NCBI GenBank assembly: GCA_030692765.1
Contig: JAUYUB010000002.1
Span: 1-64,000, forward strand
Origin: Sulfuricurvum sp.
GTDB taxonomy: Bacteria > Campylobacterota > Campylobacteria > Campylobacterales > Sulfurimonadaceae
DNA length: 64,000 nt
Direction: 5' to 3'
The notes below the pieces were generated by a model that was not told where the DNA came from, did not search any database, and saw only the letters and a list, made by a program, of their open reading frames with translations. The translations under genes and the position numbers were made by a program. Numbering within the stretch: position 1 is the stretch's first letter; every line of letters begins with the position of its first letter. This document shows, in pieces, positions 15,632-19,063 of the stretch.

Positions 15632-16426
15632 ATGAAAACCAAGATTGTTGATTTTTCGCGCTTTAGTTCGATTCGAATAGGCCCTGTTGTAGAAGTAGCA
15701 TTGATCGAAGATGATATTGTTCCTAAGGCTTACACGATTGTAGGATCGGCTAATAATCTTCTTGTCGGCCCAAATCCACCTCCTATTATGATGCTTTCCA
15801 AGCAGTATGATTTTATCCGTATAGAGAACAACCAGTTGCATATTGGAGCGGCTACCCCCGGTGGACGAGTTGTCTCTTTTTGCAAAAAAAACAATATTGC
15901 CCATTTTGAATATTTTTCCAAACTTCCCGGAACCATTGGCGGGATGATAAAGATGAATGCAGGGCTCAAGGAATTTGAAATTTTCAACTATCTTATCGCG
16001 GTACGTACTCAAAAAGGATGGATTCCAAAAGAGCAAATCCAATACGGTTATCGCAAAACATCGATTAATGAAGTGGTTTTTGAAGCCTCATTTGAGTTGC
16101 ACGGGGGTTTTTCGACTGAGCGTTTAGAGATGTTTGCCCAGATGCGGTCGAATCAGCCCAATACCCCAAGCGCAGGAAGCTGTTTTAAAAATCCTCCTGG
16201 TGATTATGCCGGTCGTTTGATCGAAGCAGTTGGACTTAAAGGATTACGTCGCGGGAATATGGCATTTAGCGAAGTACATGCGAATTTTCTAGTGAACTAT
16301 GGCGGTGGAACTTATGAGGACGCAATGAGTTTGATTCAAGAGGCTCAGCAAAAAATCATGGATACATTCGCAATTGCTTTACAGTGTGAAGTTGTCGTCC
16401 TGTGTGATACGTTTGTGACGAAATAA
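15632..16426 (+). CDS. murB: UDP-N-acetylenolpyruvoylglucosamine reductase
   Basis: A 264-residue FAD enzyme that reduces UDP-GlcNAc-enolpyruvate to UDP-MurNAc in peptidoglycan synthesis. FAD-binding signs are VGSANNLLVGP and LPGTIGGMIKMNAG. The catalytic serine sits in SAGSCFKNPPG, and the C-terminal VHANFLVNYGGGTYEDA is typical. It is shorter than E. coli MurB (342) and lacks the extra loop, like other epsilonproteobacterial and type II enzymes. The gene ends the mqnD-fliQ-murB run; a separate promoter follows for the next gene. Confidence 0.93.
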   Translation: MKTKIVDFSRFSSIRIGPVVEVALIEDDIVPKAYTIVGSANNLLVGPNPPPIMMLSKQYDFIRIENNQLHIGAATPGGRVVSFCKKNNIAHFEYFSKLPGTIGGMIKMNAGLKEFEIFNYLIAVRTQKGWIPKEQIQYGYRKTSINEVVFEASFELHGGFSTERLEMFAQMRSNQPNTPSAGSCFKNPPGDYAGRLIEAVGLKGLRRGNMAFSEVHANFLVNYGGGTYEDAMSLIQEAQQKIMDTFAIALQCEVVVLCDTFVTK

Positions 16427-16438
16427 TATAAATAATTA

Positions 16439-16485
16439 TTGACTTAATACGTCACTTTGGGCTATCATGGTACTAGCTAAGTGAC
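16439..16485 (+). promoter_or_regulatory. Promoter with inverted repeat upstream of the resolvase-like regulator
   Basis: TTGACT (16439-16444) and TATCAT (16463-16468) are separated by 18 bp, a recognisable sigma-70-type pair that is rare in this -35-poor genome. A 7-bp inverted repeat, GTCACTT (16451-16457) and AAGTGAC (16479-16485), lies across the promoter spacer and the likely start point. It is a plausible operator for the DNA-binding protein encoded just downstream (autoregulation), which is inference. Confidence 0.55.
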
Positions 16486-16500
16486 AAGGAAGTGCTATAG

Positions 16501-17163
16501 ATGGTGGTCAGCTATATACGTGCGGATAAAAATTTTGAGAATGTGATTGAACAGCTTAAAATCATTGGCGCTTACTGCGATCGGGAACATCTGGTTGTTG
16601 ACAAAGAGATGATCGATCAAACGTTCCAAAATAAGCGGATTGTAGAGCGTGATGAAGTTGTAAATTTATTTAGATCGCTGCACAATGATACGTTGTTGGT
16701 GTACGATACATGGGCACTAAGTATTAATATTGAAGACATCATACAAATGATGAGTTGTTTACTGCGAAATGGGATTGAAATACATTTTGTAAAATCAGGG
16801 ATAGTAATTGATCGTCAAAGTGATACAATGGTTGTTCTTGGTTTGATTGATCAGCTTCGCCAAACCATTCAAAATGAAAATAAAAAAGAGATTGGACGCC
16901 CTAAGGGATCGAAGTCTTCTTCAAAGTTCGATTTTTTCCTTGACCAGATTATCATAGAGTTAAAACAGGGACGTAATGTCAGCGATATCGCACGTCTTTT
17001 GAATGTGAGTCGCAGTTCGCTAAAGGATTATGTGGAGTCACGTGCACTTAAAGAGCTGGTACGCGGAATGACTCTGACACGAAACAATGAAGATGCTGAA
17101 GCGATGATTATTGGGACGATTAAGTGTCCATCGCTACAAGCAACGATAAAGGAGAGTGTGTAA
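16501..17163 (+). CDS. Serine-recombinase-derived protein lacking the catalytic serine (putative regulator)
   Basis: A 220-residue protein with the layout of a small resolvase/invertase: an N-terminal resolvase-like domain (about 1-130) and a C-terminal helix-turn-helix (about 140-190, GRPKGSKSS then VSDIARLLNVSRSSLKDYV). In active enzymes the opening reads YxRVSxxxQ; here it reads YIRADKNFEN, with Ala in place of the catalytic serine, and the arginine-rich catalytic centre is not evident. No inverted repeats or mobile-element genes flank it. Its stop overlaps the ccoG start (TAATG), so it is in an operon with an oxidase-assembly gene. I infer a transcription regulator exapted from a recombinase. 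Confidence 0.75.
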   Translation: MVVSYIRADKNFENVIEQLKIIGAYCDREHLVVDKEMIDQTFQNKRIVERDEVVNLFRSLHNDTLLVYDTWALSINIEDIIQMMSCLLRNGIEIHFVKSGIVIDRQSDTMVVLGLIDQLRQTIQNENKKEIGRPKGSKSSSKFDFFLDQIIIELKQGRNVSDIARLLNVSRSSLKDYVESRALKELVRGMTLTRNNEDAEAMIIGTIKCPSLQATIKESV

Positions 17164-18599
17164 TGGAAGAAAGTGCTTTAAAGGGAAAAGCGTATTTGGC
17201 AGGATGGATTCCTTATCGTATTAGACGATATTGGTTTTTTGTACTTGTCACTACATTTACTCTAGTGGTTCCATGGGTACGCATTGAAGGAAATCATCTC
17301 TTTTTGTTGAGCTTTGATAAGTTGAAACTGCATCTTATGTTTGTACAGTTTGATATGCAAGAACTCTATTTAATGCCATTTGTATTAATGTTCCTTTTTA
17401 TTGGTATCTTTGGTATTACGGTTCTTGGGGGTCGTTTCTTTTGCGGATGGATGTGTCCACAGACCATTTTTCGCGTAGCATATCGGGATTTACTCGAGAC
17501 AAAAATATTTAAACTGCGAAAACGGATTAAAAACAAGCAAATAGAACCTGATTATTCAACAACGAAAAATAAGATGAAGCGTGTTGCCCTGCTGTTGATC
17601 TCTGTGGTTCTGGCACTGCTGGCAGCAACGGATTTAATGTGGTTTTTTGTCCCCCCTGAGGATTTTTTGCAATACATGCGCAATCCTTCGGAGCATACGG
17701 TATTAATAGGGACGATCATGGGGATCGCCGCTTTTTTAGTGTATGACATTGTTTTCTTGAAAGAAGATTTTTGTGGCTATGTGTGCCCCTATTCACGAAT
17801 TCAGTCGGTTTTGTACGATGATGATACGATCATGGCGATTTACAATCCAAACCGTGGCGGTGAGATTTATGATGAGCATCATGTCAAAAATTTTACAACG
17901 CAAAAAAGTCTTTTGAGTGTTAATCCAACGGCAGAGTGCACCACATGCGAAAGCTGTGTAACGGTATGTCCGACTCATATTGATATACGAAAAGGGCTAC
18001 AGTTGGAGTGTATCAACTGTCTTGAATGTGTTGATGCTTGTACTGATGTCATGGGCAAGCTAGGCAAGCCAAGTCTGGTGGAATGGTCAAGTGAGAAAGA
18101 GACCCTCTTTAGGAAAGGTAAAACGCATTATCTACGTCCTAAAATCATTGGGTATGCGATAATTTTGCTTATTACAACAGTAATCATGATTATCATGGGA
18201 AGTGAAAAAGAGTACATACTCCTCAATATCAACAAAGAAAATCGTCTTTTTGGGATTAAGCATACGGATGATGGAAAAATTAGAGTTGATAATGCGTATA
18301 CGATTTTATTGCAAAATACGCTCAATGAAGATCATGAGTATTATTTTGACGTAATCGCTCCTGCGGGAATGCAAGGTAAAATAAAAATTGGGGAACCCAC
18401 TAAACCGTTCAAGGTAAAACCGGGTATTGTCAAGAAAAAAGTAATCGTTCTGTATACCGATGAAATACTCATGAATGATGCAAGCAAAGATACGGTGATA
18501 CCGATTACGATTCATGCCTATGCGATGGATGACAAAGAAAAAATCGTCACCGATAAAGAGTCAACGTTTACTTTCCCTCGGGCAGATTTATTAAAATAG
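17163..18599 (+). CDS. ccoG: Cytochrome c oxidase accessory protein CcoG
   Basis: A 478-residue polyferredoxin-like membrane protein for cbb3 oxidase assembly, implicated in copper reduction and insertion. ATG 17163 (AAAGGAGAG upstream) overlaps the previous stop; a longer frame starts inside that gene and is rejected. It has about five transmembrane segments, two membrane-edge cysteine motifs (CGWMCPQTIFR and CGYVCPYSRIQSV), two 4Fe-4S ferredoxin motifs (CTTCESCVTVCP and CINCLECVDAC), and a C-terminal periplasmic Ig-like domain. No ccoNOQP genes are in the window; they must lie elsewhere. Confidence 0.93.
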   Translation: MEESALKGKAYLAGWIPYRIRRYWFFVLVTTFTLVVPWVRIEGNHLFLLSFDKLKLHLMFVQFDMQELYLMPFVLMFLFIGIFGITVLGGRFFCGWMCPQTIFRVAYRDLLETKIFKLRKRIKNKQIEPDYSTTKNKMKRVALLLISVVLALLAATDLMWFFVPPEDFLQYMRNPSEHTVLIGTIMGIAAFLVYDIVFLKEDFCGYVCPYSRIQSVLYDDDTIMAIYNPNRGGEIYDEHHVKNFTTQKSLLSVNPTAECTTCESCVTVCPTHIDIRKGLQLECINCLECVDACTDVMGKLGKPSLVEWSSEKETLFRKGKTHYLRPKIIGYAIILLITTVIMIIMGSEKEYILLNINKENRLFGIKHTDDGKIRVDNAYTILLQNTLNEDHEYYFDVIAPAGMQGKIKIGEPTKPFKVKPGIVKKKVIVLYTDEILMNDASKDTVIPITIHAYAMDDKEKIVTDKESTFTFPRADLLK

Positions 18600-18610: not shown

Positions 18611-19063
18611 TTAATGCTCATGGTCTTCTTCTTCTTTCTTCTCTTTCCCAAAGGTTTTTTCTAATCCGCTGATTAGTTCTTGCTTTTGCGTTTCGCTAAG
18701 TTTTGCTTCCGGATGCGTAGGTAGATAAAACCACAGGGGCATTTCTCCCTCACGTACCTCTTTAGCAGCTTCATCACCTTCGTTTTTTTTCTGAGCACCC
18801 CACGCTGAGACATTAAAATGTTCGCGTCCCTCTTCTACATCACGTGCAAGCAGCCATGAAACGGGGGCGATATTGCTGTACCATGGGTATTTTGTTTGAT
18901 GAGAATGGCAGTCGGAACAGGCGTTGTCAAAAAGCTCTTTTGTTCGAGGTGAGTCCCATGTCGGTTCACTGATGATGGGTGGATTCGTATGGTCTTTCCC
19001 GTAAGGGATGAGCTGAATCGCAACAGCGGTAATAGTAAGGGCAATGAATATTTTTGTTTTCAT
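18611..19063 (-). CDS. Haem-binding domain protein, monohaem cytochrome-like
   Basis: A 150-residue exported protein of the haem-binding-domain family (PF14376 type). It has an N-terminal signal or anchor ([22 protein letters not shown]), then the haem c attachment motif in [19 protein letters not shown], followed by [20 protein letters not shown], which is diagnostic of the family. The C-terminus is Lys/Glu-rich and ends in DHEH. Such proteins are periplasmic haem carriers of poorly known role. It converges with ccoG (12 nt between stops) and has its own upstream region. Confidence 0.88.

Follow-up and report, generated by a model that had tools for sequence, protein, structure and literature searches.

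Among the closest described systems to the locus reported here is the Tn3/gamma-delta resolvase (TnpR); acting at res sites that hold the promoters of tnpR and tnpA, it regulates both genes, its own included (PMC7157771). Another is vaccinia F16, given as a predicted inactive serine recombinase in PMC11980589. The window analysed in this study (the whole stretch of 64,000 nucleotides of Sulfuricurvum sp., a genus of the Sulfurimonadaceae in the order Campylobacterales, GenBank assembly GCA_030692765.1, contig JAUYUB010000002.1, positions 1 to 64,000 of the forward strand) carries a forward-strand gene (16501..17163) for a 220-aa protein with the N-terminus MVVSYIRAD, which, judged from its sequence, is a degenerate, catalytically dead serine recombinase. 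We regard it as probable that this protein is a domesticated recombinase serving as a transcription factor, a dimer of which, placed on a 39-bp site, would repress its own promoter and ccoG.

Compared with TnpR, the family found in the window shares the serine-recombinase fold, as seen in profile matches to 1gdt and 5cy1, and autoregulation from promoter-holding sites, described for TnpR in PMC7157771, is predicted here. Unlike TnpR, this family lacks the catalytic Ser and Arg residues and has a shortened E-helix, it possesses a C-terminal tail with an invariant Cys, the arms of its site span 38-40 bp end to end, and its gene is chromosomal and lies before ccoG. As for the Mpi/Hin invertases, the likeness lies in the best NCBIfam match (Mpi), the best PHROGs match (an invertase) and a GRP segment that is Hin-like, whereas the Mpi score is far under its cut-off and the catalytic residues are gone. 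F16 is likewise a predicted inactive serine recombinase with a weak Pox_F16 match to the window protein (Pfam, E=0.0011, under cut-off), but it is a viral protein targeting nucleoli and is not known as a bacterial-type regulator. SqrR/BigR, CstR and CueR are regulators sensing thiols or Cu(I); they resemble the present family in their conserved cysteines and in their redox, sulfur or copper target genes, whereas their folds are unrelated and cysteine sensing is here a candidate property.

The open-licence PMC literature, covered mostly through top-ranked titles, yielded no title that treats this gene or a bacterial regulator made from an inactive serine recombinase. On respiratory regulation in Campylobacterota, a review (PMC6682613) contains recombinase, resolvase and ccoG 0 times, the A. 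butzleri genome paper (PMC2147049) contains recombinase, resolvase and invertase 0 times, and the portion consulted of a review of recruited mobile-element genes (PMC8987985) yielded no mention. The putative ccoG-linked family of dead-recombinase transcription factors is undescribed as far as this literature shows. If the proposal holds, a recombinase would have turned into a dedicated transcription factor, and ccoG would gain a candidate regulator whose 39-bp site and pair of cysteines are well defined and directly testable. Since the matching family models would name the gene an invertase or resolvase, a widespread regulator of an oxidase-assembly gene may hide under a wrong name.

By sequence, the 220-aa protein has the catalytic-domain fold of resolvases: the Pfam Resolvase N-terminal domain (PF00239) was matched with E=1.3e-7 and 32.2 bits vs. 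a cut-off of 23.3, and a PDB profile search with 23 orthologues retrieved gamma-delta resolvase 1gdt (E=5e-4) and 5cy1 (E=0.0035), the top match of that search being a designed repeat protein that matched the HTH part only. Pfam matches to HTH domains were weak and under their cut-offs (HTH_7, 21.2 bits vs. 23.8), the best NCBIfam match was the Mpi invertase model (38 bits, far under the cut-off of 272) and the best PHROGs match was a DNA-invertase family. An AlphaFold2 model, with six close relatives as input, reached a pLDDT of 44.8 and a pTM of 0.30, values too low for it to be of use. The gene is present as a single copy in the window's own genome, and its dN/dS of 0.05-0.10 vs. seven relatives, two of which have a dS >1, shows purifying selection at the sequence level.

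The loss of catalytic residues was followed in 101 orthologues, each from a different genome (62 of the window's family and 39 of the rest of the order), with four active-looking recombinases as controls (L064-L067; L068 is likewise another recombinase). At the catalytic Ser position of the YxRxS motif, occupied in the window by Asp9 (16525..16527, + strand), Ser is found in none of the 101 orthologues and in all four controls; Asp occurs in 61/101 and Lys in 13/101, and this limited share of Asp implies no new function of that residue. Of the Arg pair in DRLGR, the first is retained in 0/101 and the second in 1/101 (L125), and an E-helix column that holds Arg in the four controls is deleted in every orthologue. 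The preliminary description, which had read the change from YxRVS to YIRAD as the loss of the nucleophile, is thus borne out family-wide, and the alignment of catalytic Arg residues it had called for extends the loss to DRLGR.

The DNA-binding region (16894..17058, + strand) comprises a GRPKGS segment (residues 132-137), which we take to be arm-like from its resemblance to Hin, and an HTH (about residues 141-186). The GRP of the arm is present in 101/101 orthologues, giving a C-terminal HTH with a minor-groove arm, and the conservation of this region across orthologues agrees with the earlier view that the HTH is intact. Two cysteines are invariant as well: Cys86 (16756..16758, + strand) and the C-terminal Cys209 (17125..17127, + strand) are Cys in all 101 orthologues and constitute a conserved pair of the kind seen in cysteine-based sensor regulators. 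C209 sits in a C-terminal tail that the four control recombinases do not have, while position 86 is also Cys in one of these four. The preliminary description mentioned neither the invariant cysteines nor the 39-bp site, and it did not touch on how widely the gene occurs in the order or on the additional sites that relatives carry.

In the window, ccoG (17163..18599, + strand; TIGR02745, E=2.6e-135) starts with an ATG at 17163 that overlaps the regulator stop codon (TAATG), an overlap from which translational coupling of the two genes would be expected. That the regulator gene lies directly before ccoG, as had been remarked earlier, is a general arrangement: ccoG is the next gene on the same strand in 101/101 loci, picked among search matches in the family and the order rather than drawn at random, with estimated gaps of -34 to +114 bp. 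The ccoG alignment covers at least 380 residues in 98/101, the other three (L011, L045 and L054) being cut by contig ends, and in the closed genome G237 (L135) the adjacent ccoG has an interrupted frame, with a complete ccoG at another place in the genome. The pairing persists where upstream genes differ, or where the retrieved stretch contains neither the preceding gene, presumably murB in the window, nor those upstream of it. Four order genomes (G262, G286, G306 and G326) have the gene and no ccoG match; since the gene lies there at a contig edge, they speak neither for nor against the pairing. TIGR02745 is found in 352/398 genomes of the order and the regulator in 156/398, so that most ccoG genes of the order are without this regulator. 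As for the function of the neighbour, CcoG is a cupric reductase that serves the assembly of cbb3 oxidase. PMC8267372 describes the cupric reductase role and reports that C. jejuni lacking its homologue has only about half the oxidase activity.

Two minor observations concern the ccoG surroundings. A haem-binding-domain protein (PF14376, E=5e-40) is encoded at 18611-19063 on the reverse strand, convergent with ccoG, and is there in several close relatives. Also, six genomes (G202, G274, G358, G216, G233 and G259) have two or three ccoG matches of equal or near-equal score that lie far apart on a single contig, a pattern suggestive of recent duplication or of repeats in the assembly.

Concerning the distribution of the regulator, 127 of the 200 genomes of the window's family, in 17 of 18 genera, gave a match at E<=1e-5; among them, G006 and G011 carry other recombinases (E of 2e-8 and 7e-7) and G112 a 51-aa fragment. 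An order-wide profile search at E<=1e-25 located the gene in 156/398 genomes and 28/87 genera. In a draw from the phylum it was found in 65/298 genomes, all matches falling in the same order, the share of the 298 that lies outside the order not being given. Plasmids, phages and viral contigs searched with the gene gave no match, and a reading as a mobile gene was rejected on that basis.

Upstream of the gene, a promoter-like TTGACT-18 bp-TATCAT (16439..16468, + strand) is overlapped by a 39-bp operator-like site, TGACGA...ACGTCA (16416..16454, on neither strand in particular), which covers the -35 box as well as the murB stop codon. Its upstream arm (16416-16426) doubles as the 3' end of murB (GTG ACG AAA TAA), so that site and coding sequence overlap. 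In the aligned upstream regions, TGACGAAA...TATTGACTTTnnTCGTCA flank the -35 box and TATAAT follows; the conserved element is a TGACGA-n27-TCGTCA inverted repeat of 38-40 bp over the -35 box, and in most relatives both promoter boxes come close to the consensus. As with TnpR, an inverted-repeat site thus overlaps the gene's own promoter. One best half-site spacing could be assigned at 90/101 loci, 86 of these 90 having 38-40 bp and 64 exactly 39, and a 39-bp site scoring at least 10 of 12 was present at 77/101 loci vs. 3/2020 mononucleotide shuffles. Eight other families of the order have loci with the same pattern ahead of the gene; exceptions are several loci of family f6, where the right arm is degenerate, and L125, which has no clear site. 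For these comparisons, L057 was left out of one upstream-region comparison for want of an anchor, L042 was dropped by score, and alignment A4 was made without L010, L015, L101, L113, L115, L117, L118 and L146; L102 and L200 (100 bp only), L037-L039 (duplicates of earlier loci) and the named records L031-L036 (some from the same genomes as earlier loci) were also dropped.

A second TGACG arm occurs 10-16 bp after the first site in 46/62 family loci and, with a looser pattern, in 53/62, 13 bp on in 38 of them, a distance that would separate the sites of a pair by about five turns of the helix. A full second pair, covering -10 to the start, fits in 20/62 family loci, and in the window the second site is degenerate.

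Variations of the half-site were also noticed in other groups. Seven f4/f6 loci (L098, L106, L117, L118, L129, L132 and L133) have one to three extra direct TGACG copies upstream of the 38-40 bp site, spaced, by eye, about 20-25 bp apart, as if room were left for the binding of additional subunits. In f20, all ten loci (L104, L110, L111, L112, L120, L124, L126, L130, L131 and L136) have AAAAAGGTGACA just before the start codon, which may be a ribosome-binding site containing a half-site.

The preliminary description had pointed to a strong promoter with a 7-bp inverted repeat, through which the gene would control its own operon. Both the -35/-10 pair and the repeat (GTCACTT-n21-AAGTGAC, 16451..16485, its left arm overlapping the conserved half-site) are real; the repeat as an operator was rejected. 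Its right arm is lineage-specific: of the seven nearest relatives, L003 retains it and L002 and L004-L008 do not. In addition, the suggested genome scan for more such repeats, at gaps of 10-30 between GTCACTT and AAGTGAC, came out with two places vs. one for a backwards control. Control of the own operon remains in accord with the 39-bp operator-like site over the promoter, not with the 7-bp repeat.

The association of site and gene across genomes was analysed with R1, a promoter model built from such promoters, and R2, a symmetric model trained likewise on own promoters. The best R1 match was the own promoter in 20/20 genomes. At E<=0.002, R2 found a site in 117/125 family genomes with the gene vs. 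4/75 without it (G006 and G011 counted as without, G112 with its fragment as with the gene), an association that is partly trivial, since the own-promoter site disappears together with the gene. The remaining 8/125 have the gene and no R2 site; three of the four positive genomes without the gene are assemblies of 65-81% completeness and the match in the fourth is weak (7.5e-4). At E<=0.02, in 53 genomes of the order, a site was found in 37/42 with the gene and 1/11 without (G225, E=0.016). Twenty-five of these 42 gene-bearing genomes lie outside the family: 19 have the own-promoter site (the sole site in 18), five have none and G481 has a single one, inside a reading frame. In the window's genome, the site at 16416-16454 stands alone at R2 E<=0.02, three weaker R1 matches elsewhere lying inside reading frames (two) or having E=0.6 (one). 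A loose search pattern, TGACG-n27..31-CGTCA, was discarded as unspecific (10 genome places vs. 5 in the control).

Sites also precede other genes in part of the family, and the one at the promoter of an M48-peptidase operon provides a less trivial test than the R2 counts, which are largely own-promoter counts: it is present in 11/15 genomes with the regulator gene and 0/15 without, 12 of these 15 negatives forming one clade and the gene state changing four times on the tree. M48 sites were judged by position and score, so that G091 (score 9, at the place seen in relatives) was counted, whereas a G000 candidate with a score of 10 was excluded for lying >1 kb upstream; by chance, genomes without the gene reached 8-9 at best. 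G019 has a broken M48 gene. An independent-pairs test of whether the gene and the M48 site are lost together was not significant, with three pairs on supported branches and none contrary. The operon encodes a membrane-type protein of 63-70 aa and the M48 peptidase (Pfam, E=9.5e-38), and a gene that resembles prmC follows it; in the M48 promoters, no -10 box was seen where its normal spacing from the site would put it. The small membrane-type protein, which probably has a single membrane segment, was noted before the M48 gene in L139-L143, L145, L146, L148, L149 and L193, and the one member scanned had no Pfam or NCBIfam match. L137, L138 and L144 share with the ccoG promoter the placement of the site over the -35 box.

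In the mechanism we propose, a dimer of the regulator would bind the inverted repeat TGACGA-n27-TCGTCA and, with one arm between -35 and -10 and the body of the site over the -35 box, would keep its own promoter and ccoG repressed. Where a second arm pair exists, as in part of the family, farther downstream and covering -10 to the start, two dimers might lie on one face of the DNA and be joined as resolvase dimers are. DNA binding, the dimeric state, co-transcription with ccoG, the response to a signal and the direction of control, repression rather than activation, are all what we infer from such sequences. A MerR-like activator could also suit a promoter whose spacer is 18 bp with one arm inside it; that the protein activates rather than represses is nevertheless unlikely, given the near-consensus -35 and -10 boxes in most relatives and a second arm pair (20/62) better suited to repression. 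That the protein still recombines DNA site-specifically, with its nucleophile at another position, would explain the same fold family in Pfam, PHROGs and the PDB profile search, but it appears extremely improbable with Ser in 0/101, the first Arg in 0, the second in 1, the E-helix Arg column deleted in 101, and the searches of plasmids, phages and viral contigs empty.

Two other explanations keep the dead recombinase and change its relation to the site or to ccoG. The 39-bp site might belong to a different regulator, the recombinase gene being, like ccoG, merely a target with another job; binding is in our model a deduction and 4/75 genomes have the site and not the gene, which such a regulator would accommodate. 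Against this stand the 65-81% completeness of three of those four genomes, the weak match in the fourth, the M48 site found in 0/15 genomes without the gene and the inward-reading TGAC-type arms, which resemble resolvase half-sites, and we hold this explanation to be rather improbable. A pure autoregulator setting its own level, with ccoG as a passenger, would agree with the own-promoter site being alone in 18 of 19 genomes outside the family (E<=0.02) and in the window's genome; as ccoG is the constant neighbour in 101/101 loci, near enough for a shared promoter, this is very unlikely.

As regards the signal, C86 and C209 may be its carriers, whether by binding Cu(I) or a metal cluster, by oxidation of their thiols or by reaction with reactive sulfur, and the autorepressor of the ccoG operon is perhaps thiol- or metal-responsive. 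It is the cysteine pair together with the further targets that suggests a copper, thiol redox or reactive sulfur signal. These targets, found, like the M48 operon, in part of the family only, include a flavoprotein, for which the best NCBIfam match of the one protein scanned is type III sulfide:quinone reductase (99.7 bits vs. a cut-off of 525), and proteins with rhodanese, Nitro_FeMo-Co and DUF6858 domains. A wider and more tentative proposal, which we hold to be possible, is that of a Campylobacterales transcription factor family of dead recombinases with a Cys86/Cys209 sensor for Cu(I) or reactive sulfur. By way of res-like operators of 39 bp, it would link the copper reduction needed in cbb3 oxidase assembly (ccoG) with genes for sulfur handling and membrane proteases, and a resolvase-like tetramer may bridge two such operators. 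Outside the family, G386 has a weaker site (E=0.009) before the gene for thiosulfate reductase PhsA (1121 bits, cut-off 694).
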